A stretch of 64,000 nucleotides of DNA from Flavobacterium sp. A45. Its GTDB lineage: Bacteria; Bacteroidota; Bacteroidia; Flavobacteriales; Flavobacteriaceae. Below, piece after piece: positions 25,123 through 52,370 of the stretch. The stretch's first letter is position 1. The number at the start of each line of letters is the position of its first letter. Position numbers and translations under genes: made by a program. Location: positions 62,001 through 126,000 of the forward strand of contig NZ_MUNX01000065.1 in the NCBI RefSeq assembly GCF_002001005.1, in the 5' to 3' direction. The notes below the pieces were generated by a model. The model was not told the origin of the DNA and searched no databases. It worked only from the letters and a program-made list of their open reading frames with translations.

Positions 25123-25142
25123 TTTCAGTTTGTTTAAAATTA

Positions 25143-26492: not shown

Positions 26493-26504
26493 AGCTTTTT
26501 AGTT

Positions 26505-28535: not shown

Positions 28536-28545
28536 TATACAAGTG

Positions 28546-30180: not shown

Positions 30181-30199
30181 TCGAAGAATTTTTTGTTTC

Positions 30200-31435: not shown

Positions 31436-31469
31436 TTTGAATGTTTTAAGTTGAAGGTTCATTTAGAAG

Positions 31470-32438: not shown

Positions 32439-32448
32439 TTGTTATAGT

Positions 32449-33384: not shown

Positions 33385-33415
33385 TAGCTGATACAAATCA
33401 CTTTTCTTATATTTT

Positions 33416-38100: not shown

Positions 38101-38269
38101 TCTCTATAACATTTACGCCAGAAAGAGCTAAACCAGATGAATCTGTAATTAGACCGCCAATTGTAGACCCATTTTGTGCTTTCATCTCATTGCTCATGAG
38201 TAGGCCCAATAATAGGGTTAAGGCATAAAAATAGCTTATACTATTTTTTAAATGTTGCTTTATTTTCAT
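35159..38269 (-). CDS. SusC/RagA-family TonB-linked outer-membrane importer
   Basis: 1036-residue importer. A signal peptide (about 1-31, ending MKAQ) precedes a carboxypeptidase-regulatory-like domain (about 35-110). The SusC plug follows, with LKEVVVVGYGTAKRADVTGSVS at about 112, SPLEAIQGSTPGVQISSS and NPQDIARMDVLKDASSAAIYGSRGASGVIIVTTK, and then the beta-barrel. It takes up oligosaccharides bound by SusD using TonB energy. It lies 36 bases below the first GH28 gene and probably shares its operator-controlled promoter. A leader motif ATAACTAACCAAA lies 11 bases before the ATG. Confidence 0.95.
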   Translation of the reverse strand: MKIKQHLKNSISYFYALTLLLGLLMSNEMKAQNGSTIGGLITDSSGLALSGVNVIEKGTKNSTSTNFDGKFSFKVTNDNATLLITFVGFAAQEVTLAGRTTITIKLRDEQETLKEVVVVGYGTAKRADVTGSVSTISASTITERNVISPLEAIQGSTPGVQISSSTGRAADGFKVVIRGNNSLLSGTTPLYVVDGVPTDGIDFLNPQDIARMDVLKDASSAAIYGSRGASGVIIVTTKSGTNAKSGFNVSIESSYGTKTAARLPKMMNGQEWWLFHQAAYLSATPLTQTPANLASLAGNQSPLLVSRANSGYTYDWYDAVLQPGMTQNNYINISGRSDSGMGYNLAMGIQSDAGLIENDTTDKYSFKLGLSHKINDKFSTGANITITHTDSELGSDLAMQDAFRLSPLMSPWAVDASGNELVGNSFFLPGKLTYPDGSWAINKTSTVNPLMEIANSSQTEKIWQTVGNIFFQYQPLKWLSFKTTFAAGVTNSQAGTAYGAQTNAGVALNNKNSSSITNFDNFNYTWDNQIDLKHTFKEDHAVSVLLLQSLYSNVDETSYLYSNNQPFDTGIYNIGSGVQTSYNVSSGYAKNSLSSYAIRLNYAFKDKYLLTASNRWDGSSVLAEGVKWENFPSVALGWKISKESFLENVTAISDLKLRASIGYTGNDNVAPYTSQALLNQQTFYANGSNLVPGWQSSTLANENLSWEKTRELNLGLDFGLLQNRITGSVDVYDRLSDKLIYAQQLPAETGWKNTVSNVGSVSNKGIEALLTTKNIKTQNISWETTFTFTKNVNELESIYNQDKVSDIGNKLILGSPLNPNYNYIYDGIWQESEAAAAASYGQAPGQARPKDLNGDGKFNQDDRTVIGNPNPEWQGSFYSKLTFGQFDFNFSVLTSQGQTVLSSFHDNFADVTDRGRQKIAMDYFIPTNGAGLPANASTSNPRPGPAATGAGTYWASDFAFYRDVSYVKIKNISVGYTLESDLLKKLKMSNFRIYVNVLDPFVFTDFDGYDPEWAASPLGINRPASITTQLGLSVKF

Positions 38270-38305: not shown

Positions 38306-39754
38306 TTAGTTTTTCATTAATTCTCCATTGATATAGCTATCAATAAATTTTAGATTGTCTACGTTTTCAATTGAGTAGGGTTGTTTTACTTTTTCGATAG
38401 TAACATTTTTAAAAGTTATATTTTTTACTGGAGATGTTGTATGCCCTTTGGCCAAAATACCATACTGACCTCCATTTTTTACTTTGACATTCTCTAAAGA
38501 GATGTTTTCTATACGAGGAATAAATTCTCCTTTTTGGTTACCATGAACATTGTAAAACATATCTGCTTTTAGAACCGCTTCTTTTACTTGTCCTATTTCA
38601 ATGTTTCTCACATAGAAATTTTCAATTAATCCACCTCTTTTTGAATTGGTTTTCAATCGTATAGCAATGTCAAGATTTGGACTGTTCATGATGCAATTCT
38701 CAACATAAACATTACTTACACCGCCTGAAATTTCGCTTCCTATAGTAACTCCTCCGTGTCCATCAAACATGGTACAGTTTTGCACTATGATGTTCTCACT
38801 TTTCATCGCAACTCTTCTTCCATCTGCATCGCGACCCGATTTTATGGCAATGCAATCGTCTCCTGTATTGAATGTACAATTTTTGATAATGACATTTTTG
38901 GAATATTCAGGATCACAGCCGTCGTTGTTCGGGCCGTGACTATTAATTGTCACTCCATCTATAATTACATTTTCTGATTTGATAGGATGAATTACCCAAA
39001 ATGGAGCATTGATTATCGTAATTCCTTGTATAAGTACATTTTTGCATTCAAAAAACTCCACAAAATTGGGTCTTAAGTAATGCCCTTCCCCAAATATTCT
39101 CTCAGAAACAGGGATATTATTTTCAGCCATTTCTACTAGACGCAATCGATTGAGTGGATCCACTTGAGAAGATGTTCCTTTTTTCCATCCATATTCTTCT
39201 TTACTGCACCAAGGCCACCAATTTTCGTTATTTGCTTGACCGTTTAATGTGCCTTTACCAGTAATGGCTACATTTTTCTTTTTATAAGTATAAACTAAAG
39301 GGGAGTAGTTCATGTATTCGGTACCTTCAAAAGAGGTGTGAACCAGTGGATAGTAATCTTTGGGATTTGTACTAAAAAGAATTTCGGCACCTTCCTCTAA
39401 ATGAAGATTTACATTGTCTTCCAGATGGATGGCATGAGATAGGTATTTGCCTTTTGGTACAAGAACCATTCCTCCGCCTTGTTTGTTACATTCTTGAATC
39501 GTTTTTTTTATGGCTTCAGTATTGTCGGATTGACCGTCAGCTTTGGCACCATAGCTTAATATGTTAAAAGTTTTATTTTGAAAACTTGGGTATTTCACCA
39601 TATTTACAATAGATTGCATCTTTTTCCATACATCTTTGGATTGCTCTTTTGTCTGTGCGCAAGAAATGGAGCTAAAAGATAAAGCACAAGCAAGTATAAA
39701 AAAGGTTTTTGGTATAAATGCTTTCAAAATTTGATTTGTATTGAATGGTTTCAT
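38306..39754 (-). CDS. Glycoside hydrolase family 28 (polygalacturonase-like), first gene of pectin block
   Basis: 482-residue secreted enzyme with a signal peptide (about 1-33, with Cys33 in SISCAQ, possibly a lipobox). The beta-helix carries NNDGCDPEYS, GDDCIAIKSGRD, GHGGVTIGSEISGGV and IRLKTNSKRGG, a complete set of GH28 catalytic and substrate-binding residues including the Arg-x-Lys motif. It is probably an exo- or endo-polygalacturonase. It is the promoter-proximal gene, 33 bases below the operator at 39787-39800. Confidence 0.93.
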   Translation of the reverse strand: MKPFNTNQILKAFIPKTFFILACALSFSSISCAQTKEQSKDVWKKMQSIVNMVKYPSFQNKTFNILSYGAKADGQSDNTEAIKKTIQECNKQGGGMVLVPKGKYLSHAIHLEDNVNLHLEEGAEILFSTNPKDYYPLVHTSFEGTEYMNYSPLVYTYKKKNVAITGKGTLNGQANNENWWPWCSKEEYGWKKGTSSQVDPLNRLRLVEMAENNIPVSERIFGEGHYLRPNFVEFFECKNVLIQGITIINAPFWVIHPIKSENVIIDGVTINSHGPNNDGCDPEYSKNVIIKNCTFNTGDDCIAIKSGRDADGRRVAMKSENIIVQNCTMFDGHGGVTIGSEISGGVSNVYVENCIMNSPNLDIAIRLKTNSKRGGLIENFYVRNIEIGQVKEAVLKADMFYNVHGNQKGEFIPRIENISLENVKVKNGGQYGILAKGHTTSPVKNITFKNVTIEKVKQPYSIENVDNLKFIDSYINGELMKN

Positions 39755-39786: not shown

Positions 39787-39800
39787 TGTAATCGATTACA
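39787..39800. promoter_or_regulatory. LacI-type operator at GH28 promoter
   Basis: Perfect palindrome TGTAATCGATTACA directly after the -7 box, so it covers the expected transcription start. Identical sites lie at 50694-50707 and 52327-52340. Confidence 0.85.
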
Positions 39801-39830
39801 CAAACCTACATATAATTTTTATATAAACAA
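39801..39830 (-). promoter_or_regulatory. Promoter of GH28-susCD operon
   Basis: On the minus strand, TTG (39828-39830), a 19-base spacer and TAGGTTTG (39801-39808), ending exactly where the operator begins. Confidence 0.75.
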
Positions 39831-39971
39831 AAAAAAGTCCTTAAAAAAATTAGAAATAAAATTAAAAGTGGATATTTTTATGATATTCTATGCAAAAGAT
39901 TAAAAAGCATGAATATTTTGTGTTTAAAAAGGTGGTTTAAAATAAAATCATAAGAAATATTTTTATTTTAA

Positions 39972-39985
39972 TGTAATCGATAACA
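39972..39985. promoter_or_regulatory. Second LacI-type operator, upstream of regulator gene
   Basis: TGTAATCGATAACA, one mismatch from the perfect palindrome, 66 bases before the regulator ATG. The upstream TATTTTAA is a poor -7 box. It may serve autoregulation or DNA looping with the site at 39787. Confidence 0.65.
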
Positions 39986-40051
39986 TTGTCTGTGTTTATT
40001 GTTTTTTTTTATTTATTTTTACAAATATAATATTATACTTTATTTCCATAT

Positions 40052-41074
40052 ATGGATCAAAAAACGACAATTTACGATATAGCGAAGAGGCTTGACATCA
40101 CTGCAGCCACTGTATCGAGGGCTTTAAATAATAATCCTAAGATCAGCGAAGCTACCAGAAAGCTGGTATTGGAAACTGCTGACAAAATGAATTACAAGCA
40201 GAATCGATTGGCACAATCGCTTCGAAGCGGTAAGAGTAATAATGTTGGTGTAATCGTTCCCCGTATTGACAGTAACTTTTTTGCTTCCGTTATTCGTGGA
40301 ATCGAAGAGGAATTGCATCCGGAAGGTTACCATGTTATTATATGTCAGACGCATGAGGACGAAAAAAGAGAAATTGAAAACATTACCACTTTATTAAATG
40401 CTCAAGTCGATGGGATTTTGATGTCAATTTCAAATGTCTCCAAAGAAAATGATCATGTAATTAAAAATGTGGTAGATAAAAACGTTCCTTTAATCTTTTT
40501 TGATAGAAAGAAAAAGATGGAAGGTGTGAGTTCGGTAACTATTAATGACTTTGAAGGAGGTTATTTGGCAACAAAAAATCTTATTGAACAAGGTTGTAAA
40601 CGTATTGCTCATTTAACAGGTGACCAATCACTGGAAATATTTGAACATAGAAATAATGGATTTAAGAAAGCTTTAGCAGATAGTGGTTTAGAGTTAAACG
40701 AAAATTATGTGTTCCAAACCAAAAGTAATGTTGACGCTGGAAGACAGGCTGTTGAAAAATTATTAAGTATGAATCCTCCTCCAGATGGAATTTTCTCTTC
40801 AAGTGATTTCGCTGCATTAGGTGCTATTCAGGAGTTGAGGGAAAGAGGGGTTAAAATTCCCGAGGAGTTTTGCGTTTTTGGTTTTGGTAACGAACCTTTT
40901 ACGCGTTTCATGGAATTGTCAATTTCCTCTGTAGATCAGTCACCGCTGGAGATGGGCAAAATGGCAGCCAAAGTATTCTTGGAACAAATCAATAATACTG
41001 ATAATATTAAGATTGAAAAGAAAGTTGTACTTACTCCCGAATTACACATCCGTAAATCATCTACCAGAAAATAA
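40052..41074 (+). CDS. LacI-family transcriptional regulator of the pectin/uronate locus
   Basis: 340 residues. The N-terminal helix-turn-helix (TIYDIAKRLDITAATVSRALNNNPKIS, residues 6-32) is followed by the hinge helix NRLAQSLRSGKSNNVGVIVP and a periplasmic-binding-protein-like ligand domain to the end. LacI proteins of this form bind palindromic operators with a central CG. It is the only regulator in the pectin locus, with operators of that form at four places, so it most likely represses the locus until a uronate or 2-keto-3-deoxygluconate signal binds. The ligand is not known. Confidence 0.9.
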   Translation: MDQKTTIYDIAKRLDITAATVSRALNNNPKISEATRKLVLETADKMNYKQNRLAQSLRSGKSNNVGVIVPRIDSNFFASVIRGIEEELHPEGYHVIICQTHEDEKREIENITTLLNAQVDGILMSISNVSKENDHVIKNVVDKNVPLIFFDRKKKMEGVSSVTINDFEGGYLATKNLIEQGCKRIAHLTGDQSLEIFEHRNNGFKKALADSGLELNENYVFQTKSNVDAGRQAVEKLLSMNPPPDGIFSSSDFAALGAIQELRERGVKIPEEFCVFGFGNEPFTRFMELSISSVDQSPLEMGKMAAKVFLEQINNTDNIKIEKKVVLTPELHIRKSSTRK

Positions 41075-41120
41075 AGAAAAGTATAATATTTTATTCACTG
41101 TTTAACTTTTGAAAAAACAC

Positions 41121-41159
41121 AAAAGCTGTTAGAAAATGAATTCTAACAGCTTTTTTTTT
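41121..41159 (+). terminator. Terminator after lacI-type gene
   Basis: A perfect 14-bp stem (41121-41134 with 41141-41154), a 6-base loop and nine T. It lies between the convergent regulator and uxaA genes. Confidence 0.92.
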
Positions 41160-41183
41160 AAACAAAATAAAACCCAAAAAATA

Positions 41184-42800
41184 TTATAATGAAACTCCTC
41201 TTTTCCAAGGAATAAAATCATTTTGATTCAAAATGGCCGCTTTGGTTTTGATAGTACCACTAGCCACATTTATAATAAACTCCAGCATTTCGTCTGCCAT
41301 TTCATCTATTGATTTTTCACCGGTTATAATTTCACCAGTATCAATATCTATAATGTCAGACATTTTTCTGGCGAGTTCAGAGTTTGATGAAACTTTTACA
41401 ACCGGTGCAATTGGATTCCCTGTTGGAGTTCCTAAACCGGTAGTAAATAGTACCATATTGGCTCCAGAACCAACCATAGCCGTTGTACATTCTACATCAT
41501 TTCCAGGTGTACACAATAAATTCAGACCGGGTTTCGTAATGTATTCGCCATAATCCGAAACGCCAACAATAGGGGAGGTTCCGCCTTTTTTGGCAGCTCC
41601 AGCCGATTTCATTGCATCGGTAATTAACCCGTCTTTGATGTTTCCAGGCGACGGATTCATATCAAATCCTGATCCTGCATCGACAACGGTTTTTTCATAC
41701 CATTTCATTAATTCCAAAAAGCGTTTTCCATCTCCATCTTCATTGCAACGGTTTACCAATTCCTGCTCAACACCACACAATTCGGGGAATTCAGAAAGAA
41801 TAGTAGTTCCGCCCAATGCCGTTAGCAAATCCGAAGTTACTCCCAATGTTGGATTAGCCGAAATCCCGGAAAAACCATCAGAACCCCCACATTCCAAACC
41901 AATTGTCAGTTTAGACAATGGGGCAGGAGTTCTTTCTATTTTATTAGCTTCTTTAATTGCTGCGAAAGTGTCTTTTACAACACTGCTCATCATTGCTTCT
42001 ATTGTTCCAATTGACTGTTGGTCATATATCAAAACAGGTTTTTTACTGTTTGGATTAATTTCATACAAGGCGTCTTTAAAGATTTGAATTTGCAGATTTT
42101 GACAACCCAAACTCAAAACTGTTGCTCCAGCCACATTTGGATTATTCACATAACCAGCCAAAAGCTTTGCCAAGCTATGTGAATCTTGACGAATCCCACC
42201 ACAACCACCTTGATGCGTGATGAATTTTACTTCAATATTATTAAATAAATTAGCATCATTTGAAGCGGCTTCATTCCCAGCTCCTCCAGTTTCCGTTTTT
42301 ACCAAAGAACGAAGCAATAGCTGATAATCATTCTCTTTTGGCTTCATTAACTCCTTTTCAAAAATATCTTTTAGGATTTCGATATTTCTGTTTTCACAAA
42401 AAACCAACGGAAAAAACAACCAAACATTCTCAGTTCCTACTTGTCCATCTTCTCTATGATACCCTTGAAAAGTTCTGTCTTTCCACTTGTCTACATTTGG
42501 AACTGTCCAACCGATAGTTTCTGTTTTTCCGGTTACTTTATCACTTTCGTGTTTTACATTTAATGTCGAAAGTAGTCCTCCTTTTTCAATTCTAGCACTC
42601 GCTTTCCCCACCAAAACACCATACATAATAATTCGATCACCTATATTCAAAGGAGTCATCGCAATTTTATGTTTCATTTTTACATCCGACTCGATTGTGA
42701 TGTTTTCTCCCTCAAACGAAATTATTTCGCCAGCGGTAAGATTCACCAATGCCACGGCAACATTATCCGAAGGGTTTACTTTTATTAATTTTTTTTGCAT
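41184..42800 (-). CDS. uxaA: Altronate dehydratase
   Basis: 538 residues from ATG 42800; a longer frame would need TTG. UxaA removes water from D-altronate to give 2-keto-3-deoxygluconate, the third step of galacturonate use, with an iron or manganese cofactor. The N-terminal SAF-like domain is followed by the large domain with HQGGCGGIRQDSHSL, ECGGSDGFSG, CGVEQELV and GTPTGNPIAPVVKVSSN. It is the last gene of the uronate block and converges on the regulator gene. Confidence 0.93.
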   Translation of the reverse strand: MQKKLIKVNPSDNVAVALVNLTAGEIISFEGENITIESDVKMKHKIAMTPLNIGDRIIMYGVLVGKASARIEKGGLLSTLNVKHESDKVTGKTETIGWTVPNVDKWKDRTFQGYHREDGQVGTENVWLFFPLVFCENRNIEILKDIFEKELMKPKENDYQLLLRSLVKTETGGAGNEAASNDANLFNNIEVKFITHQGGCGGIRQDSHSLAKLLAGYVNNPNVAGATVLSLGCQNLQIQIFKDALYEINPNSKKPVLIYDQQSIGTIEAMMSSVVKDTFAAIKEANKIERTPAPLSKLTIGLECGGSDGFSGISANPTLGVTSDLLTALGGTTILSEFPELCGVEQELVNRCNEDGDGKRFLELMKWYEKTVVDAGSGFDMNPSPGNIKDGLITDAMKSAGAAKKGGTSPIVGVSDYGEYITKPGLNLLCTPGNDVECTTAMVGSGANMVLFTTGLGTPTGNPIAPVVKVSSNSELARKMSDIIDIDTGEIITGEKSIDEMADEMLEFIINVASGTIKTKAAILNQNDFIPWKRGVSL

Positions 42801-42884
42801 TTTAATCAATTATAAAATGTTGATACTTTTTTATTTTTGGGCGGATAAGCCAGAAAACTAACAGGGCATTTCTATTTTTTTGTT

Positions 42885-42935
42885 TTAAAAAATCGGTGAC
42901 AATCCGTTTAATCCGTACTATCTGTGGCCCATTTT
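42885..42935. repeat. Dispersed-type repeat between uxaA and uxaB
   Basis: The sequence contains AATCCGTTTAATCCGTACT and ATCTGTGGCCC, degenerate internal repeats of ATCCGT. Short elements of this kind (read on the other strand as GCCACAGAT..ACGGATTAAACGGATT) recur in intergenic DNA of Bacteroidota, which is recalled rather than shown here. Confidence 0.5.
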
Positions 42936-42944
42936 TTTTATCAA

Positions 42945-44405
42945 TTACGAATTTTGCAACTGATAAACTTTGCTATAATTCTTAAAACCTGCTTCAACTC
43001 CGTTATTGTTTATTTCATCTATAGCCAGAACCAGCGCTTCCGACAAACCATTTATTTTAGTTAAATCTTCATCCCAAAAAGGAACTGTTGAAAGTGTTTT
43101 TTGAACAACTTGTTTGATGTCATCTGATTTCCAAATTGCTGCAAAAGCATCTGTAATATCCGTACTGTCATCTACAGCAAGTACTTGTCCTTTCCATGTT
43201 CCTTTGTAAAACAAAATCAAACAGGCAAATGCAAAGCTCAAATGTGTTGGGACTTTCCCGTATTTAGAAACATAACCCAATAAACTTGGTAACACTCTCA
43301 CTTTGAATTTTGAAATCGAATTCAGGGCAATACTTGATAAATTATGTTTAATAAACGGATTTCGAAAACGATCCAAAACGTCTTCGGCAAAACTGTCCAA
43401 TTCCGATTTGTCCATTTCGATGGTTTCGTTTATTTCATCAAAAATCGCTTTGTTAATAAAATCTCCGGTGAACGAATGATCAACCGTTTCTTTAACCGTT
43501 TCATTTCCAAAAAGCAATGAAAACGGAACCATTGCTGTATGCGCACCATTAAGGATTCGCACTTTTCGAGTGCGATACGGTTGCATATCCGAAACGATTT
43601 TTACATCCAGTTTGGTTTTATGGAATGGAAGTTTTTGTGTCAAATCTTCCCCGCCTTCAATTACCCAAAGGAAAAAAGTCTCGGCGGTAACGATTAAGTT
43701 ATCGCTATAATCGAGTTGTTTATTGTATTCCTCAATTTCGGCTCTTGGGTAACCCGGCACAATCCTGTCTACTAGTGTATTGTGGAATGTATTACTTTCC
43801 AAAATCCAAGTTTTAAAACCTTCTTCCAGTTTCCAATCTTGATAGTATTGCAGAATGATTTCCTTCAAGGTATCGGCATTGTTATTGATTAATTCGCAAG
43901 GAATAATCGCCAATCCTTTAGACGGATCTCCATTAAAATGTTTGTATCTGTTATACAAAAGAAGCGTTAGTTTTGCCGGATATGAACTCGGTGGTTGCAT
44001 CAATGGAGTATCGGTATCTACATAAGCTATTCCGGATTCAGTTGTATTCGAAATGATAAAAGCTAATTCTTCCTCTTTGGCCAAAGCCAAGTAATCTTCA
44101 AAATTTGAATAGGGATTGATGCCTTTCACAAGATTGGAAATCAGTTTTTTATCTTGAATTTCTTTTCCTTTGTCCAATCCTTTCATAAACAAAGTGTACA
44201 GCCCGTCTTGACTGTTTATCAAATCGACCATCCCGTTTTCAATGGGTTGCACAACAGCTATACCTGCATTAAAATCTACGGTATCATTCAGCTCCTGGAA
44301 AGCATAATCAACAAAAGCCCTTAGAAAATTTCCTTCGCCAAATTGCACCACTTTTATGGGTTGCAAAGTTTCTAATCCTGTATTTTTTCTGTTTAAATTT
44401 TTCAT
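42945..44405 (-). CDS. uxaB: Tagaturonate reductase (altronate oxidoreductase)
   Basis: 486-residue NAD-dependent long-chain polyol dehydrogenase that reduces D-tagaturonate to D-altronate. The nucleotide-binding start VVQFGEGNFLRAFVDYAFQ is near residue 20; conserved blocks include RKVRILNGAHTAMVP with the likely catalytic Lys-Asn region and DVLDRFRNPFIKHNL. Position beside uxaA and uxaC supports UxaB over fructuronate or mannitol dehydrogenases. It is 190 bases below the SDR gene, a gap without an evident promoter. Confidence 0.92.
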   Translation of the reverse strand: MKNLNRKNTGLETLQPIKVVQFGEGNFLRAFVDYAFQELNDTVDFNAGIAVVQPIENGMVDLINSQDGLYTLFMKGLDKGKEIQDKKLISNLVKGINPYSNFEDYLALAKEEELAFIISNTTESGIAYVDTDTPLMQPPSSYPAKLTLLLYNRYKHFNGDPSKGLAIIPCELINNNADTLKEIILQYYQDWKLEEGFKTWILESNTFHNTLVDRIVPGYPRAEIEEYNKQLDYSDNLIVTAETFFLWVIEGGEDLTQKLPFHKTKLDVKIVSDMQPYRTRKVRILNGAHTAMVPFSLLFGNETVKETVDHSFTGDFINKAIFDEINETIEMDKSELDSFAEDVLDRFRNPFIKHNLSSIALNSISKFKVRVLPSLLGYVSKYGKVPTHLSFAFACLILFYKGTWKGQVLAVDDSTDITDAFAAIWKSDDIKQVVQKTLSTVPFWDEDLTKINGLSEALVLAIDEINNNGVEAGFKNYSKVYQLQNS

Positions 44406-44595
44406 TTTATCTCTTTAAAATGGTGTTTCTATTAACTGATTCTTTTTAATCATCGGACTGTATTTTTGTTTGGATTATAATAAACGACTCGTGTTTTAGA
44501 ATGTAAGTTTTCAAACCTTTAATGAGGATTGGGGAATGAATTCTTGAGCTCTAATTTTTCAAGCCGCTTATTATAGCCTTTTTTTATAAAGTATT

Positions 44596-45411
44596 TTAGA
44601 CTCCACTATAAATGGTAAATCCGCCATCTACAGTAATTTTTGAACCAGTAACAAATTTGGATGCATCACTCAACAGCCATACTAAAGCTCCTATGAGTTC
44701 GTCCGGATTTCCAAACCGATTGAAAGGTGTATTCTTGATGACCAAATTCCCTCTTTCGGTTAAACTTCCGTCAAGATTAGTTAAGAGCGTTTTATTTTGT
44801 TCGGTCAGGAAAAAACCGGGAGCAATAGAATTCATTCGTATTGTATCTCCATATCTTCTTGCTAATTCCACAGCAAACCATTTTGTATAAGAATCTATCG
44901 AAGATTTGGCCAAACTGTATCCCAACACTTTGGTAACTGCCAATTGCGACACCACCGACGAAATATTTACTATGCTTCCAGAACCGTTATTTTTTATAGC
45001 TTCACCAAAAACCTGTGTTGGCAAAATAGTACCCAAAAGGTTCAATCGCATTACTTCTTCCAAGGCGGTAACATTCAATTTGAAAATATCCTGTTCAGGT
45101 TCTATTATTGCATCGGGCATATTTCCGCCGGCTGCATTCACCAAACCGTCGATTTTTCCAAATTTGGACAGCATTTTTTCTTTTGATGCAATTAGTTGTA
45201 ACTCGTCAGTCACATCAGCAATCAGGGCAATGGCAAGTCCTCCTTTATCAATAATGTTTTGGACTCTTTCTTCTGCTATTCTTTCATTCCGACCCAGTAT
45301 TCCAACCGTTCCTCCAGCAGCTACAATACCGTTTATAAAAGCATTACCTATTATTCCAGTACCACCAGTTACTACTATTACTTTGTCTTTTAATGAAAAA
45401 TTATTCTCCAA
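44596..45411 (-). CDS. SDR oxidoreductase, probable fructuronate reductase (D-mannonate oxidoreductase)
   Basis: 271-residue short-chain dehydrogenase. The NAD(P) motif GGTGIIGNAF is at residues 16-25, NAAGG near 92, and the catalytic Ser-Tyr-Lys set is in NISSVVSQ, then GYSLAKSS, followed by NSIAPGFFLT and WLLSDASKFVTG. It resembles the YjmF-type D-mannonate oxidoreductases that reduce fructuronate to mannonate. The mannonate dehydratase that would be needed next is not in the window. It could instead act on another keto-uronate. Confidence 0.82.
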   Translation of the reverse strand: MENNFSLKDKVIVVTGGTGIIGNAFINGIVAAGGTVGILGRNERIAEERVQNIIDKGGLAIALIADVTDELQLIASKEKMLSKFGKIDGLVNAAGGNMPDAIIEPEQDIFKLNVTALEEVMRLNLLGTILPTQVFGEAIKNNGSGSIVNISSVVSQLAVTKVLGYSLAKSSIDSYTKWFAVELARRYGDTIRMNSIAPGFFLTEQNKTLLTNLDGSLTERGNLVIKNTPFNRFGNPDELIGALVWLLSDASKFVTGSKITVDGGFTIYSGV

Positions 45412-45469
45412 AATATTGTTTTATTCTAAGTTATAATCACTCTTGAAGAATCTCAACTTCCAACTTCAA

Positions 45470-45521
45470 TATTGTTTTCAGCGTTCTGAAATCTGCAATC
45501 TCACTTCTCACTTCTCACTTC
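45470..45521. repeat. Short direct repeats at the 3' end of eda
   Basis: Three copies of TCACTTC lie in tandem at 45501-45521, and related CAACTTCCAACTTC text lies at 45453-45466. Read on the minus strand the GAAGTGA copies encode the last residues and stop codon of eda. Confidence 0.55.
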
Positions 45522-46175
45522 CTTAATCGTAGCCAATGTTTTTCTAACACTCACTTGTAATACATCTAAATCTCTGCTCAATAATATCTCGTTGGTAATC
45601 AATTGGGAACCAATACCCACACAGGTTGCACCAGCGTCAAACCAACTTTTTAGATTTTCTTTTGTTGTGTTTACTCCACCTGTGGGCATAATACTCGTCC
45701 ATGGACAAGGACCTTTTATTCCTTTTATAAATTGTGGCCCATAAACATCACCAGGAAATAATTTTACAATCTCACATCCTAATTCTTCGGCTCGGGCAAT
45801 TTCAGTTAGAGAACCACAACCAGGTGACCATAGCACTTTTCTGCGATTGCAAACAATGGCTATATCTTCTCTAAAAACAGGGGTAACAATGAAATTTGCA
45901 CCCAATTGCATATAAAGGGAAGCCGCCGCTGCATCGGTAACGGAACCTACACCCAGAATCATTCCGGGTAATTCTGCCAATGCATATTTATTAAGTTCCC
46001 CGAAAATTTCGAAAGCAAAATCACCTCTGCTTGTAAACTCCATCAATCGTGCACCACCGTCATAACACGCTTTTATTACTTTTTTTCCTAGTGAAACATC
46101 CGTATGATAAAATAGGGGAACCAATCCCGTTTCCTTCATCGCTGCTGCAACTTCTATTCTTGTATATTTTGCCAT
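45501..46175 (-). CDS. eda: 2-Keto-3-deoxy-6-phosphogluconate aldolase
   Basis: 224-residue class I aldolase that splits KDPG into pyruvate and glyceraldehyde 3-phosphate, the last step of the route. The (beta/alpha)8 barrel has the catalytic Glu in LMEFTSRG near residue 46 and the Schiff-base lysine in CEIVKLFPGDVYGPQFIKGI near 140, with MPTGGVN at the phosphate site. The C-terminal tail KEVRSEK is encoded by a GAAGTGA repeat and is probably recent. kdgK lies 10 bases upstream in the same transcript. Confidence 0.93.
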   Translation of the reverse strand: MAKYTRIEVAAAMKETGLVPLFYHTDVSLGKKVIKACYDGGARLMEFTSRGDFAFEIFGELNKYALAELPGMILGVGSVTDAAAASLYMQLGANFIVTPVFREDIAIVCNRRKVLWSPGCGSLTEIARAEELGCEIVKLFPGDVYGPQFIKGIKGPCPWTSIMPTGGVNTTKENLKSWFDAGATCVGIGSQLITNEILLSRDLDVLQVSVRKTLATIKEVRSEK

Positions 46176-46185
46176 ATCTATATTT

Positions 46186-47205
46186 TTATCTTGACACTAA
46201 TCCAGCTGAATCACCATCTAGCATATTTTCAACTTCTTTTAAGGTAACCAAATTATAATCGCCTGCAATGGTGTGTTTTAAACAACAAGCAGCGACAGCA
46301 AAATCTAAAGCTCTTTGGTTATTTGAGTATTCCAGCAATCCGTAAATTAATCCTCCCATAAAGGCATCACCACTACCAACACGATCAATTACAGGGGTTA
46401 CTTCTTTTACAGCTGCTGTATAAATTGTTTTTCCGTCAAATAAAATACCGCCAATTCTTTGGTGTGAAGCACTTACGGAATAACGTAATGTGGTAGCAAC
46501 TGTTTTTAAGTTTGGACATAATTCAAAGAGTTTAGTATACAAAACAGGAAGTGATTTCTCATCCTGATAATTTGGATTTACTTTGGCTTCGCCCAGCATA
46601 AAATAGGCAGTATCAATATCTCCCAAAATAACAGTGCTGTATTGCAATAGTTCGGGCATTACTTCACTTGGAGTTTTACCATATTGCCATAATTTGGAAC
46701 GGTAGTTCAAATCGCAGGAAATAGTTAAACCTAATTTATGAGCTACTTTAATGGCTTCGAGACAAGCTTCGGCAGCACTCTCCGAAATGGCAGCAGTAAT
46801 ACCGCTCCAGTGAAACCAGGATGCTCCTTCGAGTACTTTTTCCCAATCAATCATTCCTTTTTCAATTGTTGCCATCGAGCTGTGGGCGCGGTCATAGACT
46901 ACATTACTGCCTCGTGTTCCTGCACCGGTCTCCAGAAAATAGATTCCCAAACGTTCTCCTCCATAAATTATATTTTTGGACTCGACGTTCATTTTTCGCA
47001 TTTCTTTTACAGCGCAACCTCCAATTTCATTTTCGGGTAGTCTTGTTATGAATTCTGCGGTTACACCATAATTAGCCAATGATACGGCCACATTAAATTC
47101 GCCGCCTCCATAGGAAGCGCCAAAGGCCTTTGCCTGTGAGAAACGCAAATGTCTTTCTGTCGAAAGGCGTAACATGATTTCGCCGAATGTAACTACTTTA
47201 CTCAT
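46186..47205 (-). CDS. kdgK: 2-Keto-3-deoxygluconate kinase
   Basis: 339-residue PfkB-family sugar kinase that phosphorylates KDG to KDPG with ATP. The N-terminal GGGEFNVAVSLANYG and the C-terminal DRVGSGDAFMGGLIYGLL, which includes the catalytic Asp and the anion hole, are both clear. The position between kdgF and eda fits KDG kinase, although the family alone would also allow other sugar kinases. Confidence 0.93.
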   Translation of the reverse strand: MSKVVTFGEIMLRLSTERHLRFSQAKAFGASYGGGEFNVAVSLANYGVTAEFITRLPENEIGGCAVKEMRKMNVESKNIIYGGERLGIYFLETGAGTRGSNVVYDRAHSSMATIEKGMIDWEKVLEGASWFHWSGITAAISESAAEACLEAIKVAHKLGLTISCDLNYRSKLWQYGKTPSEVMPELLQYSTVILGDIDTAYFMLGEAKVNPNYQDEKSLPVLYTKLFELCPNLKTVATTLRYSVSASHQRIGGILFDGKTIYTAAVKEVTPVIDRVGSGDAFMGGLIYGLLEYSNNQRALDFAVAACCLKHTIAGDYNLVTLKEVENMLDGDSAGLVSR

Positions 47206-47229
47206 TTATAGTATAGAATTAATTTTTTT

Positions 47230-47574
47230 CTATTTGATAAAATCTTCTCTTATGGGACTAAAAACATCTATAAGAATTCCTGCTTCTAAGCATACGACAC
47301 CGTGTATTTTATTGGAAGGAATATAAAAGGAATCACCTTTTTTCAGTATTCTTGTTTCTTCTTCAATAGTTACTTCGAATGTTCCTGCAGCAATATGGGT
47401 AACTTGTGTATGGTGATGATGGTGTAAATAACCAATTGCACCTTTTTCAAATTTCACATTGACCATCATAATCCGGTCATCATATCCTAAAATTTGGCGC
47501 AGTACTCCTTCACCTGCAACTTTCCAAGGGGTTTCGTCTTCTTTGAAAAATAGATTGCTTTTAGGAAATGCCAT
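47230..47574 (-). CDS. kdgF: KdgF-type cupin, unsaturated uronate ring opening
   Basis: 114-residue single-domain cupin. KdgF speeds the conversion of 4,5-unsaturated galacturonate, made by lyases and GH105, into the linear keto sugar used by KduI. The metal-binding motif is in GYLHHHHHTQVTH near residues 48-60, and GDSFYIPSNKIHGVV and SPIREDFIK match the KdgF pattern. It lies 24 bases above kdgK and 28 bases below uxaC. Confidence 0.92.
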   Translation of the reverse strand: MAFPKSNLFFKEDETPWKVAGEGVLRQILGYDDRIMMVNVKFEKGAIGYLHHHHHTQVTHIAAGTFEVTIEEETRILKKGDSFYIPSNKIHGVVCLEAGILIDVFSPIREDFIK

Positions 47575-47602
47575 ATTTTAATTATTGAATTAAATTTTAT
47601 TT

Positions 47603-49003
47603 TTAAAATTTGAAATATTCTTTTGCATTATTATAACTGATGTCCGAAACCATTTTGCCAATCCATTCCATATCATTTGGAAGTTCGCCTCTTTTGATTT
47701 CGTCACCAAGAAGATTACAAAGAACACGTCTGAAATATTCGTGTCTTGGAAATGACAAAAAGCTTCTGGAATCTGTCAACATACCGATAAAACAACTGAT
47801 TAATCCCATATTGGAGAGCGCATTCAGTTGTTTGGTCATTCCGTCTTTTTGATCCAAAAACCACCATCCTGATCCAAATTGAACTTTTCCCTTAACGCTT
47901 CCGTCATTAAAATTACCAATCATGGTAGCCATAACTTCATTGTCGGCAGGATTCAAATTGTAAATAATTGTTTTTGTTAATTTGTCTTTACTGTCTAAAG
48001 CATTTAGAAAACCAGACAATTTTTGTGCCTGCGGATAATCTCCAATAGAATCCCAACCAGTATCAGGGCCTAAAATTCGGTGCATACGGGCATTGTTATT
48101 TCTCAATGCTCCTAAGTGAAATTGCTGTACCCATCCGTATTCATGGTAGGTTTCGGATAAAAATAGCAAGATGGCACTTTGAAATTTCAATGCCTCTTCA
48201 GAAGTTATATTTTGATTGTCTCTTTTTCTTTTGAAAATGACATTTATCTGATTTTCGGTAAAGTTTTCAAAATATATTTGATCTAATCCATGATCGCAAA
48301 GTTTACAGCCATTTTTATCAAAATATTCAATCCTGTTTTTTAATGCTGAACATAAATCTGCAAAAGAGTTAATAGCAATTCCAGCCACTTGACCCAATGT
48401 ATCAATATAATCGTTGTAGCCGTCATTTGAAATTAGAATCGCTTTATCAGGTCTAAAAGCGGTACTTACTTTTGTAGTAAAGTCACTTACTGCTAATTTT
48501 TGATGGTATTCTAAGTTGTCAATTGGGTCTTCGGTAGTACATACAAATTCCGCATTTATTTTTGTAAGTAAGTTTCTTGTACTGTATTCAGCTGAATTTA
48601 TTTTTGCAGAAGCTTGTTCGTAAATTGATTCTGCTGATTTTTCGTTTAATAAATCATGAATATCAAAATAACGGGCTAATTCCAAATGCGTCCAATGATA
48701 TAATGGATTACGCATGGTATATGGAACTGTTTTCGCCCAATTCATAAATTTATCTTTATCAGAACCGTTGCCAGTGATAAATTCTTCATTTATCCCCAAT
48801 GTACGCATCGCACGCCATTTGTAATGATCTCCATTTATCCAAACTTTGGTAATGTTATCAAAAATAGTGTTCTCAGCAATATGTTGTGGCGATAAGTGAT
48901 TGTGATAATCAATAATAGGCTGATTTTTAGAGTAATTATGGTATAATTCTTCAGCGTATTTATTTTCTAATAAAAAATTATCATGTATGAATGTTGCGCT
49001 CAT
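47603..49003 (-). CDS. uxaC: Glucuronate/galacturonate isomerase
   Basis: 466-residue amidohydrolase-fold isomerase that turns D-galacturonate into D-tagaturonate and D-glucuronate into D-fructuronate. The metal-site motif DYHNHLSP is at residues 32-39; further blocks are WRAMRTLGINEEFITG, MRNPLYHWTHLELARYF, QFHLGALRNNN and GSGWWFLDQKDGM. Length is typical. It is 21 bases below kduD in the same transcript. Confidence 0.95.
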   Translation of the reverse strand: MSATFIHDNFLLENKYAEELYHNYSKNQPIIDYHNHLSPQHIAENTIFDNITKVWINGDHYKWRAMRTLGINEEFITGNGSDKDKFMNWAKTVPYTMRNPLYHWTHLELARYFDIHDLLNEKSAESIYEQASAKINSAEYSTRNLLTKINAEFVCTTEDPIDNLEYHQKLAVSDFTTKVSTAFRPDKAILISNDGYNDYIDTLGQVAGIAINSFADLCSALKNRIEYFDKNGCKLCDHGLDQIYFENFTENQINVIFKRKRDNQNITSEEALKFQSAILLFLSETYHEYGWVQQFHLGALRNNNARMHRILGPDTGWDSIGDYPQAQKLSGFLNALDSKDKLTKTIIYNLNPADNEVMATMIGNFNDGSVKGKVQFGSGWWFLDQKDGMTKQLNALSNMGLISCFIGMLTDSRSFLSFPRHEYFRRVLCNLLGDEIKRGELPNDMEWIGKMVSDISYNNAKEYFKF

Positions 49004-49024
49004 TATAATTTTATTAAAATATTA

Positions 49025-49819
49025 TTATTCGTTTGATGGTTTCCCGATAGTAGCCAATATACCACCATCAACATAGAGAATGTGGCCGTTTACAAAATCA
49101 CTTGCTTTAGAAGACAAGAAGATAGCTGCGCCTTGTAAATCCTCAGGATCACCCCAACGATTTGCTGGAGTTCTGCTAATAATGAAATCGTTAAATGGAT
49201 GACCGTCTACTCTAATAGGAGCCGTTTGGGTTGTAGCAAAGTATCCAGGCCCAATTCCATTTGTTTGGATATTAAATTTAGCCCATTCTGTTGCCATGCT
49301 TTTAGTCAGCATTTTTAAACCGCCTTTTGCAGAAGCATAAGCACTTACGGTATCTCTTCCTAATTCGCTCATCATGGAACAGATGTTGATGATTTTTCCT
49401 CCGCTTCCACGAGCAATCATACCTTTGGCAACTGCTTTTGACATGATAAAGGGACTAATTAAATCTACATTGATAACTTCGGCAAAATCCTTCACTTCCA
49501 TTTCAACGATAGGCGTTCTTTTGATAATTCCAGCGTTATTGATTAAAATATCGATTGGACCTACTTCAGCTTCTATTTTTTTTATATTTTCAATAACGGC
49601 AGCTTCGTCGGTTACATCAAATATATATCCGTAAGCGTCAATTCCTACTGATTTGTATTCAGCAACAGCATTATCTACAGTTTCTCGTGAAGAACGGTCG
49701 TTTATTACAATTTTTGCACCTGCATGACCAAGTCCTTTTGCCATTGCCATTCCAAGGCCATGAACTGCTCCAGTTACTAGTGCTGTTTTTCCAGTTAAAT
49801 CAAAAAGATTGATTGACAT
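49025..49819 (-). CDS. kduD: 2-Dehydro-3-deoxy-D-gluconate 5-dehydrogenase
   Basis: 264-residue short-chain dehydrogenase. KduD reduces 2,5-diketo-3-deoxygluconate, the KduI product, to 2-keto-3-deoxygluconate. NAD motif TGAVHGLGMAMAKGL is near residue 15, NNAGI near 92, the catalytic residues are in INICSMMSELG and SAYASAKGG, and the C-terminus has DFVNGHILYVDGG. The assignment over other gluconate dehydrogenases rests on the neighbouring kduI, 23 bases above. Confidence 0.92.
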   Translation of the reverse strand: MSINLFDLTGKTALVTGAVHGLGMAMAKGLGHAGAKIVINDRSSRETVDNAVAEYKSVGIDAYGYIFDVTDEAAVIENIKKIEAEVGPIDILINNAGIIKRTPIVEMEVKDFAEVINVDLISPFIMSKAVAKGMIARGSGGKIINICSMMSELGRDTVSAYASAKGGLKMLTKSMATEWAKFNIQTNGIGPGYFATTQTAPIRVDGHPFNDFIISRTPANRWGDPEDLQGAAIFLSSKASDFVNGHILYVDGGILATIGKPSNE

Positions 49820-49842
49820 ATTTTTTATTTAATTGTTAGTAG

Positions 49843-50679
49843 TTATCTTAAATCGGTTATTTTGCAAACATCCATATCTCCGTAATCCAAATTTTCACCA
49901 GCCATTCCCCATATAAAAGTATAATTGCTAGTTCCTGCACCTGAGTGGATAGACCAAGGCGGAGAAATAACTGCCTGATGATTGTTCATCCAAATATGTC
50001 TTGTTTCCTGAGGTTCTCCCATGAAGTGGCAAACAGCTTGATTTTCGGGAATATCGAGATAAAAATAAACTTCCATTCTGCGATCATGAACATGTGCTGG
50101 CATGGTGTTCCAAACACTTCCAGGTTTTAATTCGGTCATGCCCATTTGCAATTGGCAGGTAGTTACAATTCCGCCAATAATCATCTGATTCACCGTTCGG
50201 TGATTGGCTGTTTCCATTGTACCTAACTGCAGTTTGTTGGCTTCTGCCAAACTGACTTTTTTTGTCGGATAGTTCTTGTGCGCAGGAGCCGAATTCAGAT
50301 AATATTTAGCCGGATTTTTGACATCATCACTTTTGAATATTACTTCAACATTCCCACAGCCGATGTACAGTGCATCTTTAAATCCCAATTTATAAACAGT
50401 TCCTTCCACAACAACAGAGCCATCTCCTCCAACATTGATAATCCCCAATTCTCTTCGCTCCAAAAAGTAAGCAGATTTTAGAGGTTCAATGGTTTCAAGC
50501 GTTAGGGGAGTTATAGGCACTGCAGAACCGGCAATGTAACGGTCATAATGAGAGTAGGTAAAAGTAATTTCTCCTTCAGTCATTAAATTTTCAATCAAGA
50601 ATTCCTCTCTTAATTGTTTGGTGTCGTATTGCTTAACAGCCTTTGGACTTGAAGCGTATCTTGAGCTATAATTTGTCAT
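49843..50679 (-). CDS. kduI: 5-Keto-4-deoxyuronate isomerase
   Basis: 278-residue zinc cupin that isomerises 5-keto-4-deoxyuronate to 2,5-diketo-3-deoxygluconate. It starts with MTNYSSRYASSPKAVKQYDTKQLREEFL, as in the family, and carries the metal ligands in MPAHVHDRRMEVYFYLD near residue 195 and the His of PPWSIHSGAGTSNYTFIWGMAGEN. It is the first gene of the uronate operon, with an operator 14 bases before its ATG. Confidence 0.96.
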   Translation of the reverse strand: MTNYSSRYASSPKAVKQYDTKQLREEFLIENLMTEGEITFTYSHYDRYIAGSAVPITPLTLETIEPLKSAYFLERRELGIINVGGDGSVVVEGTVYKLGFKDALYIGCGNVEVIFKSDDVKNPAKYYLNSAPAHKNYPTKKVSLAEANKLQLGTMETANHRTVNQMIIGGIVTTCQLQMGMTELKPGSVWNTMPAHVHDRRMEVYFYLDIPENQAVCHFMGEPQETRHIWMNNHQAVISPPWSIHSGAGTSNYTFIWGMAGENLDYGDMDVCKITDLR

Positions 50680-50693
50680 GGTGAAAAATTTAA

Positions 50694-50707
50694 TGTAATC
50701 GATTACA
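50694..50707. promoter_or_regulatory. LacI-type operator at kduI promoter
   Basis: Perfect TGTAATCGATTACA placed directly after the -7 box and 14 bases before the kduI ATG. A bound repressor would block the start point of the uronate operon. Confidence 0.85.
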
Positions 50708-50737
50708 CAAAAGTAATTTTAAATTTTTAATAAACAA
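50708..50737 (-). promoter_or_regulatory. Promoter of the kduI-led uronate operon
   Basis: On the minus strand, TTG (50735-50737), a 19-base spacer and TACTTTTG (50708-50715), adjoining the operator. Confidence 0.75.
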
Positions 50738-50839
50738 TGTTTTATGCTGTTTTTTTAACTTGTTGAGTTTTTTATTGTTGTAAATGAATTACAGCAACCT
50801 TTAAAGATATTAGGTTTGAGCTACAATTTCTATTTTGGT

Positions 50840-52285
50840 TTACAAATCAGTAATTGGAGTGTATTTCGGTACTAATATTTTCATTACTGTCCATCCAATT
50901 AAATAGCAAACTGAGCAAATAGAAAAAATGATAAAATATCCAGCCTCAATACCATTAAAACCCATAAATGACATGTTGGTTTCTTTGCTATAATCAAATA
51001 ACAGCCCGGAACTTTTGTTTATCACTGTTGAACCAATGCCTCCGGCTAATCCACCAATACCAACAATGGTAGCAATTGCTTTTTTAGGAAACATATCACC
51101 CACAGTTGTAAAAATATTTGCCGACCACGACTGATGAGCTGCCAATGCAATACCAATTATAATGATTGGTAACCAATAACTATAGTGTCCTAAAGGCTGA
51201 GCAAGCAATGCCAGTAATGGAAAAAATGCAAAAATAAGCATCGACTTCATTCGGCCTTCGTATGGATTCATTCCTTTTTTATCAACAAAATAAGTTGGTA
51301 ACCATCCTCCAAAAATTGAAAGTAACGTAATTAAATATAAGATAAATAAAGGGAAAGCAGCTTGAGTAGAATCCATTCCATAGACAGAACTCAAATAAGC
51401 CGGTGTCCAAAACAAAAAGAACCACCATACACCATCTGTCATAAATTTGCCAAAAATGAAAGCCCAGGTTTGTTTGTGTTTAAAACATGCTGCAAAAGAA
51501 ACCTTCTCAGCTGTTTCAGGAACATAACCAACCAATTTACTATCGGCAATTATATCTTGTTGAATGTATTCTAATTCTGCAGCACTAACTTTTGGATTTC
51601 TTTCGGGTTTATCGTACATATAAACCCAAAATCCCATCCAAATAAAACCTAAGGCACCTATGATAATAAATGACATTTCCCAACCATAGGCTTTTGCAAT
51701 AAAAGGAATTGTTATTGGAGCTGCTAATGCTCCAATTGTTGCACCCGCATTGAAGATACTTGTAGAGAAAGCACGGTCTTTTTTAGGGAAATATTCAGCA
51801 GTAGTTTTAATTGCTGCAGGAAAATTTCCAGCTTCACCCAGCGCTAAAATGAATCGAGCAAAGATGAATAAAGTAACACTTACGTTAATGACCATTCCAG
51901 TATCACCTATAGTACTGATTATTTCTTTTGCGCCTTCAAAACCAACAAACCAATTTCCAGTTATATATCCTGCAGTTGCAATGCCGCAAAATGCATGCAA
52001 ACAAGCACCAATCGACCATATTCCAATTGCCCAAAGAAATCCTTTTTTAGTATCTAACCAATCCACGAATCTACCTGCAAAAAATAAAGAAACTGCATAA
52101 AAAGTTGAAAATAAAGCGGTAATATTTCCATAATCATTATTGGTCCAGTGAAATTCAGGCGCAATGAAATCGCTCCATGTCAACGAAAGAACTTGACGAT
52201 CTAGGTAATTAATTGTTGTTGCGAAGAATAATAGAGAACATATCGTCCAACGGTAGTTTCCAGTCTTTTTATTTGTTTCACTCAT
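50840..52285 (-). CDS. exuT: MFS hexuronate transporter
   Basis: 481-residue inner-membrane carrier from ATG 52285; a longer frame would need TTG. About 12 membrane segments are visible, with the early NYLDRQVLSLTWSDF typical of the anion-cation symporter group that includes hexuronate transporters, and EAGNFPAAIKTTAEYFPKKDRAFSTSIFNAGATIGA after segment 4. It imports galacturonate or glucuronate, inferred from the locus. It has its own operator and lies upstream of kduI, separated by 160 bases containing another promoter. Confidence 0.88.
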   Translation of the reverse strand: MSETNKKTGNYRWTICSLLFFATTINYLDRQVLSLTWSDFIAPEFHWTNNDYGNITALFSTFYAVSLFFAGRFVDWLDTKKGFLWAIGIWSIGACLHAFCGIATAGYITGNWFVGFEGAKEIISTIGDTGMVINVSVTLFIFARFILALGEAGNFPAAIKTTAEYFPKKDRAFSTSIFNAGATIGALAAPITIPFIAKAYGWEMSFIIIGALGFIWMGFWVYMYDKPERNPKVSAAELEYIQQDIIADSKLVGYVPETAEKVSFAACFKHKQTWAFIFGKFMTDGVWWFFLFWTPAYLSSVYGMDSTQAAFPLFILYLITLLSIFGGWLPTYFVDKKGMNPYEGRMKSMLIFAFFPLLALLAQPLGHYSYWLPIIIIGIALAAHQSWSANIFTTVGDMFPKKAIATIVGIGGLAGGIGSTVINKSSGLLFDYSKETNMSFMGFNGIEAGYFIIFSICSVCYLIGWTVMKILVPKYTPITDL

Positions 52286-52326
52286 TGTTGAGATAATTGG
52301 TTGGTTAGTTATCAATATTTTATTTA

Positions 52327-52340
52327 TGTAATCGATTACA
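52327..52340. promoter_or_regulatory. LacI-type operator at exuT promoter
   Basis: Perfect TGTAATCGATTACA directly after the -7 box, 41 bases before the exuT ATG. Confidence 0.85.
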
Positions 52341-52370
52341 CAAAAATAGTTTTTATTTTTATATATACAA
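52341..52370 (-). promoter_or_regulatory. Promoter of exuT
   Basis: On the minus strand, TTG (52368-52370), a 19-base spacer and TATTTTTG (52341-52348), the same layout as the GH28 and kduI promoters. Confidence 0.75.

Follow-up and report, generated by a model that had tools for sequence, protein, structure and literature searches.

In Dickeya and Escherichia coli, pectinase genes and genes of the 2-keto-3-deoxygluconate (KDG) pathway are governed by one KDG-induced repressor, KdgR, which belongs to the IclR family. Here we describe a different arrangement in a 64,000-nucleotide stretch of the Flavobacterium sp. A45 genome (contig NZ_MUNX01000065.1, positions 62,001 to 126,000; hereafter the window), in which a LacI-family gene, lacI, lies between a pectin polysaccharide utilization locus (PUL) and a block of uronate genes. 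Unlike the Dickeya and E. coli KdgR, the regulator of the window is not of the IclR family, its operator is another one, and its putative targets include a SusC-SusD (SusCD) operon. We propose that this LacI very probably acts locally to repress a regulon for pectin and uronates, through CG-centred operators at -7 boxes.

Other described systems are closer to this locus. The KdgR and UxaR regulators of Bacteroides are also of the LacI family, with predicted regulons over glucuronate and galacturonate catabolic genes, and the KdgR regulon also takes in a few proteins that are periplasmic or extracellular (Ravcheev et al. 2013, PMC3878776). The window shares with them a LacI-family regulator over uronate catabolic genes and differs in that, here and in many relatives, operators also stand before the GH28-SusC-SusD operon, with lacI between the two blocks. 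One-component control of SusCD operons has itself been published. In Bacteroides, ManR and AraR each place a SusCD operon and monosaccharide catabolism under one regulator (PMC3878776); unlike the window regulator, they are of the GntR and NrtR families and serve mannosides and arabinan. AusR of Zobellia galactanivorans is, like the regulator proposed here, a one-component repressor of a flavobacterial PUL, in its case released by metabolic intermediates, and is unlike it in being of the GntR family and serving alginate, not pectin; 8 of the 29 regulators in alginate clusters are LacI genes (PMC7874173). The pectin PUL of Gramella flava lists an 'exuR' hexuronate repressor (PMC5306329). Our literature search, with mostly open-access coverage, found no account of the present regulon, which may thus have been published elsewhere.

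Results

Three exact operators abut predicted promoters

The first-pass annotation had pointed to three minus-strand promoters of identical layout, TTG-N19-TAnnTTTG, each directly followed by a perfect palindrome over the expected start point. This layout was confirmed before GH28, kduI and exuT, and in all three the last base of the -7 box adjoins the palindrome, TGTAATCGATTACA. In the start-site map of F. psychrophilum the TAnnTTTG box occupies -12 to -5 (PMC9723704); the abutting palindrome would therefore span about -4 to +10, in agreement with the proposed position. Across the 4.35-Mb genome that holds the window (4,345,377 bases), exact TGTAATCGATTACA occurs three times, always at the pectin/uronate locus (O1, O3 and O4; Table 1), and frequent random exact copies were not found. 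Allowing one mismatch added two copies, namely O2 before lacI and one (C70:21791) within the 5' end of an open reading frame (ORF) whose protein is unlike those of the locus. In 100 shuffles of the window, searched with up to two mismatches, the mean was 0.38 palindrome copies and none reached the observed four. The reversed pattern gave 3 genome matches against 5 for the real one at one mismatch and 30 against 37 at two, so that only exact copies rise above the genome-wide background. A degenerate pattern matched five places beyond the known four: three inside ORFs, a fourth about 20 bp 5' of where an ORF is called to start, and a fifth (C158:30335) in an intergenic gap whose two flanking genes have no obvious link to pectin. 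These five were treated as chance.

The palindrome co-occurs with the LacI ortholog

Sequence by itself shows where the sites lie, how they are arranged and conserved, and that they are linked to this LacI clade. Among 299 Flavobacterium genomes, an ortholog (E <= 1e-100) is present in 92, and the exact palindrome is found in 84 of these versus 5 of the 207 without it. In a family sample of 249 genomes, 37 carry an ortholog (at least 57% identity; one 52% identical protein was excluded), and the exact palindrome is found in 22 of the 37 versus 6 of the remaining 212 (Fisher test, 5e-58 for the genus and 1e-16 for the family, with kinship between genomes uncorrected). The exact reversed pattern was positive in 18 of 299 genus and 5 of 249 family genomes; these counts and the overlaps were tallied by hand from hit lists. 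In the 212 family genomes lacking the ortholog, five of the six exact copies fall inside open frames; the five have similar flanks and a frame that runs off the locus, and are probably a coincidence in one conserved gene. kduI itself is present in all 37 ortholog genomes of the family sample versus 44 of the 212 others.

We collected 37 ortholog neighbourhoods (1.49 Mb) from 36 of the 37 genomes of the family sample (one genome gave two loci and one was left out), with ORFs called by script from ATG starts only. They hold 24 exact copies and 90 at up to one mismatch; for 25 permuted palindromes the maxima were 0 and 2. All 24 exact copies, and 63 of the 66 one-mismatch copies classified, are intergenic in sequence of which called ORFs make up 89%. 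Intergenic operators occur in 36 of the 37 neighbourhoods, mainly at kduI, GH28, susC and lacI. Counted over the 300 bp upstream, 21 of 22 kduI genes have an operator (20 of them with the box abutting), as do 16 of 22 GH28, 13 of 25 susC and 27 of 39 lacI genes. None was found before any copy of the inner genes gh88 (26), uxaA (32) and kdgK (20); the counts for kduD, uxaC and uxaB take in operon-internal genes, where no operator is expected. For 15 of the 36 genomes the stretches collected gave no kduI; two of the 15, G040 and G245, have an exact site just before a kduI elsewhere in the genome. The central CG is present in all 101 sites collected, partly by construction since they were collected by consensus. 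Away from lacI, other Flavobacteriaceae have exact sites in front of PL1 pectate lyase genes, of which six encode CBM77 and a secretion tail and one does not; further such sites stand before susC genes, GH28-like genes and a GH88 gene, and one protein downstream of such a distant site had no Pfam match. Pectin is reported to induce two susC-type genes of a polygalacturonase operon 60-100-fold in F. johnsoniae (PMC8056085), an operon that may be a site-bearing one.

The promoter layout spotted in the window recurs widely among these relatives, though not everywhere. TAnnTT[TC]G is flush with the operator (offset 0) in 40 of the 85 intergenic sites that have a gene downstream; each other offset accounts for 0-3. 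In the upstream region of lacI, the far operator has an abutting box in 52 of 70 cases, all 52 with a TTG 17-23 bp 5' of the box (spacing 19 or 20 among the rows listed).

A sister LacI clade pairs with a different operator

As a control we took kduI promoters from genomes without the ortholog, 20 of the 44 that have kduI. None of the 20 has a TGTAATCGATTACA-type operator, even at two mismatches, and 7 carry ACAATCGATTGT at most 300 bp upstream. In six of these seven the immediate neighbour of kduI is a sister LacI, about 40% identical to that of the window; in the seventh (G021) it lies 1.6 kb away. One further genome (G225) has a sister-like LacI 4 kb away, and there the ACAATCGATTGT palindrome was not found at kduI. 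The sister LacI thus shares with the window protein its kduI neighbour and the operator core AATCGATT, and differs in its operator, ACAATCGATTGT instead of TGTAATCGATTACA, and in its recognition helix, N[PAS]S instead of TAA. Among the 34 window-type helix-turn-helix (HTH) motifs caught by the script expression, the helix reads TAATVSR in 32, the other two having TGATVSR and SAATVSR; all three sister proteins readable have N[PAS]STVSR. This clade-matched difference is, in our judgement, the best evidence short of experiment that the adjacent LacI would read these sites.

In the seven loci where the sister clade lies near kduI, the palindrome is mostly TACAATCGATTGTA, with AACAATCGATTGTA in one (L283). 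The sister clade is perhaps an alginate counterpart. The sister operator pattern, with one mismatch allowed, has one match in the genome of the window, and a protein tree places one LacI paralog of that genome, C69, beside the sister clade (84/86).

The operator nearest to lacI forms another class

The fourth site, O2, had been grouped with the other three. O1, O3 and O4 do share one layout; O2 is no fourth copy of it, lying 5' of the predicted lacI promoter. In relatives too, the lacI-proximal operator is usually asymmetric (..ATCGATAACA). A -7 box is recognisable downstream of it in 33 of 59 cases and starts 27-31 bp away in 28 of these 33, most of the 28 coming from one Flavobacterium clade; the operator therefore lies just 5' of the -33 region. 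On this pattern, it is of another class than the operators of the metabolic promoters, usually asymmetric and 5' of the predicted lacI promoter. In the window, where the -7 box of lacI is tentative, no TTG was seen 17-23 bp 5' of it.

The O1-O2 spacings (148, 164, 174, 185 and 196-201 bp) looked periodic, and helical phasing or looping was considered. A jitter test gave 0.0002 with one value per lineage and 0.2 with distinct values only, and the clustering peaked at period 12, not 10.5, so that the idea was not supported.

A tandem duplicate of lacI occurs in one Flavobacterium clade (in one family genome, G127, and several genus genomes), the copies being about 72% and 68% identical to that of the window. 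In seven second copies examined, the distal operator is always absent and the proximal one is present in four.

Homologs deeper in the phylum

In a phylum sample of 296 genomes, homologs of family f23 are 43-49% identical (10 loci taken from 11 matches, one left out). At 9 of the 10 the gene is part of a uronate operon or adjoins one; a similar site (at most two mismatches) is present at 7, before kduI at 5. The single f5 locus has an exact site before kduI, and no similar site was found in f8 (2 loci) or f2 (1 locus). A tree of 35 proteins grouped the window type with f2 and f5 (100/100), f23 with f8 (89/85), and the sister clade by itself (100/99), the branching order among them not being settled. 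These findings fit the LacI-type KdgR predicted for Bacteroides, and the f23 homologs are candidate counterparts of its BT0487. With a LacI-family regulator joined with operators at uronate genes in the window (O3 before the kduI block) and at kduI in relatives, the regulon appears to be a variant of that scheme, extended to a SusCD and carbohydrate-active enzyme (CAZyme) operon.

Genes of the locus

The predicted features are collected in Table 1. That a LacI-family gene lies between the two blocks, as first reported, was borne out: its protein matches the LacI HTH domain PF00356 at 48.4 bits (cut-off 27), with PF00532, PF13407 and PF13377, for the sugar domain resembling periplasmic binding proteins, also above cut-off, and the palindrome at the three promoters is exact and CG-centred, as in LacI/GalR systems. 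The Pfam scan gave no match to the IclR family, the family of the enterobacterial KdgR. The nearest named relatives of the window LacI, from Flavobacterium sp. HJJ and F. aquicola, are 90% identical. The PUL has adjacent susC and susD genes together with two GH28, GH43, GH88, a pectic lyase and esterases, and the gaps in its putative operon are 7-36 bp except for 91 bp between susD and the esterase gene. Beyond lacI, the uronate block runs on the minus strand in the order exuT, then kduI, kduD, uxaC, kdgF-like, kdgK, kdgA, SDR (short-chain dehydrogenase/reductase), uxaB and uxaA.

A fructose-1,6-bisphosphatase gene lies 35 bp past the GDSL gene at the PUL operon end, as if gluconeogenesis were switched on together with pectin use. 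The same placement is seen in one other neighbourhood (G397, 94%) and not in the other 36 of the family, and the flanks of the named-species loci are too short to tell. Further away, a YhcG/DUF1016 nuclease-like gene stands between two gyrase/topoisomerase IV subunit genes.

Table 1. Predicted features of the pectin/uronate locus and its flanks (window positions)
Feature	Position	Strand	Description
Operator O1	39787-39800		Exact TGTAATCGATTACA, 14-bp palindrome, at GH28/PUL promoter
PUL operon promoter	39801-39830	minus	Predicted sigma-A; TTG-N19-TAGGTTTG, -7 box abutting O1
Operator O2	39972-39985		Asymmetric TGTAATCGATAACA, one mismatch to TGTAATCGATTACA; 66 bp 5' of lacI start
lacI -7 box	40014-40021	plus	Tentative; TATTTTTA, last base off consensus; 28 bp 3' of O2
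Operator O3	50694-50707		Exact TGTAATCGATTACA, at kduI promoter
kduI promoter	50708-50737	minus	Predicted; TTG-N19-TACTTTTG, abutting O3
Operator O4	52327-52340		Exact TGTAATCGATTACA, at exuT promoter
exuT promoter	52341-52370	minus	Predicted; TTG-N19-TATTTTTG, abutting O4
lacI	40052-41074	plus	LacI/GalR-family regulator, 340 aa, proposed repressor; divergent from PUL operon
GH28	38306-39754	minus	Polygalacturonase-like enzyme; first PUL operon gene
susC	35159-38269	minus	SusC-like TonB-dependent receptor
susD	33488-35146	minus	SusD-like protein
Remaining PUL genes	24391-33396	minus	BD-FAE esterase, DUF4861, GH88, GH43, pectic acid lyase-pectinesterase fusion, GH28, GDSL esterase
exuT	50840-52315	minus	Major facilitator superfamily transporter, named from context; first in-frame ATG gives 481 aa ending at 52285
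kduI	49843-50679	minus	5-dehydro-4-deoxy-D-glucuronate isomerase
kduD position	49025-49819	minus	SDR dehydrogenase; best NCBIfam gluconate 5-dehydrogenase; name partly from context
uxaC	47603-49003	minus	Glucuronate isomerase family
kdgF-like	47230-47574	minus	Cupin, 114 aa, under the 120-aa cut of the ORF list; solved KdgF chains among matches
kdgK	46186-47205	minus	PfkB kinase, named from context; KDG kinase models below their cut-offs
kdgA	45501-46175	minus	KDPG/KHG aldolase
SDR	44596-45411	minus	D-mannonate oxidoreductase subfamily
uxaB	42945-44405	minus	Tagaturonate reductase
uxaA-like	41184-42809	minus	Altronate/galactarate dehydratase family
Fructose-1,6-bisphosphatase	23336-24355	minus	
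Hybrid histidine kinase	14786-16891	plus	CHASE4 and receiver domains
YhcG/DUF1016	19357-20463	plus	Nuclease-like
Gyrase/topoisomerase IV subunits	17472-19343, 20464-23190		

Discussion

The proposal that this LacI controls both blocks draws on its co-occurrence with the palindrome, on the operators in nearly all ortholog neighbourhoods, on the operator-free control promoters, and on the different operator and helix of the sister clade. Several observations weigh against it. The sites come from related genomes, so that the counts are not independent events; 8 of the 92 genus orthologs lack an exact palindrome, one of the 37 neighbourhoods (G014) lacks any operator, and only 2 of the 4 exuT homologs scanned have one. 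A box at offset 0 is missing from 45 of the 85 sites, and a box within one base from 43, while an abutting box is found at only 7 of 22 GH28 and 5 of 25 susC genes. The genome encodes nine LacI HTHs, that is, eight LacI proteins besides this one. Most starts listed for the f23 homologs have a TASTVSR helix together with a TGTAATCG-type site, and therefore the serine that they share with the sister clade cannot alone explain the sister operator; the first helix position (T or N) is thus the better switch candidate. Finally, repression is deduced from the operator covering the start point, that is, from position.

An alternative that we regard as unlikely, though the strongest of those considered, is that LacI covers these sites while a remote hybrid two-component system (HTCS) or extracytoplasmic function (ECF) sigma system is the main PUL switch, leaving LacI with catabolite-level control only. 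Such dual control has a precedent in Bacteroides, where an AraR-regulated susCD operon is also under HTCS_Ara-1 (PMC3878776). The first-pass annotation had placed LacI in lieu of HTCS or ECF regulation. Within the block at 23.3-52.3 kb this holds, as lacI is the sole regulator by Pfam among the 21 main ORFs, with neither a DNA-binding hybrid sensor nor an ECF sigma/anti-sigma pair; the claim does not extend to five overlapping antisense ORFs, most small ORFs and remote regulators, which lay outside the search. For the hybrid histidine kinase, which lies about 7.5 kb beyond the end of the PUL, Pfam matched no DNA-binding domain.

It is improbable that LacI is an activator, or both activator and repressor, at these promoters. 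In its favour, a protein on the lacI-proximal operator would sit just 5' of the predicted -33 region and could activate from there; against it, the operator at the metabolic promoters of the window spans -4 to +10, and a protein in that place should block. Slightly less probable still is that the palindrome is a CcpA-like global carbon-control site of one or more of the other LacI-family proteins, with the adjacent lacI incidental: although the solved structures closest to the window LacI by sequence are those of CcpA, and the 14-mer is in print, within the literature searched, only in a staphylococcal CcpA paper (PMC9598941), a global regulator would be expected at many sites and not at three exact ones in one locus, the presence of the palindrome tracks that of this ortholog, the recognition helix differs in all seven paralogs read out of eight, and the sister LacI pairs with a different operator.

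Under local repression by the adjacent LacI, a mechanism for the whole locus can be outlined. LacI-family regulators bind as dimers. A LacI dimer would bind the CG-centred palindromes, of approximate consensus YGYAATCGATTRCR, next to the sigma-A -7 box. Occupying about -4 to +10, it would block RNA polymerase at three transcription units of predicted extent, namely the GH28-susC-susD-CAZyme operon, kduI-kduD-uxaC-kdgF-kdgK-kdgA-uxaBA, and exuT. During pectin degradation an intracellular uronate catabolite would release LacI, and outer-membrane capture, depolymerisation, import and catabolism would rise jointly. Our guess for the inducer is KDG, because the saturated and unsaturated branches of the pathway meet there; galacturonate and tagaturonate are alternatives. 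The second, asymmetric operator just 5' of the predicted lacI promoter may provide autoregulation of either sign.

A wider reading, which we put forward tentatively and with somewhat less than even confidence, is that an old LacI-type uronate repressor of the Bacteroidota kept the operator core AATCGATT while outer bases and recognition helix changed together, giving insulated parallel circuits, and that the pectin version in Flavobacteriaceae captured SusCD and pectate lyase operons. These circuits would use TGTAATCG for pectin and TACAATCG near other kduI genes, perhaps for alginate. On this reading a PUL would respond to an intracellular catabolite and not to a periplasmic oligosaccharide. 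The two LacI clades, with different helices and operators at the same target gene, are a natural experiment on the separation of paralogous repressors.

Flavobacteria are among the major degraders of polysaccharides from plants and algae, yet the regulation of their PULs is little worked out. If the proposed control is correct, a short operator at a fixed place in the promoter would predict pectin-responsive genes from sequence in the 92 Flavobacterium genomes that carry the ortholog.

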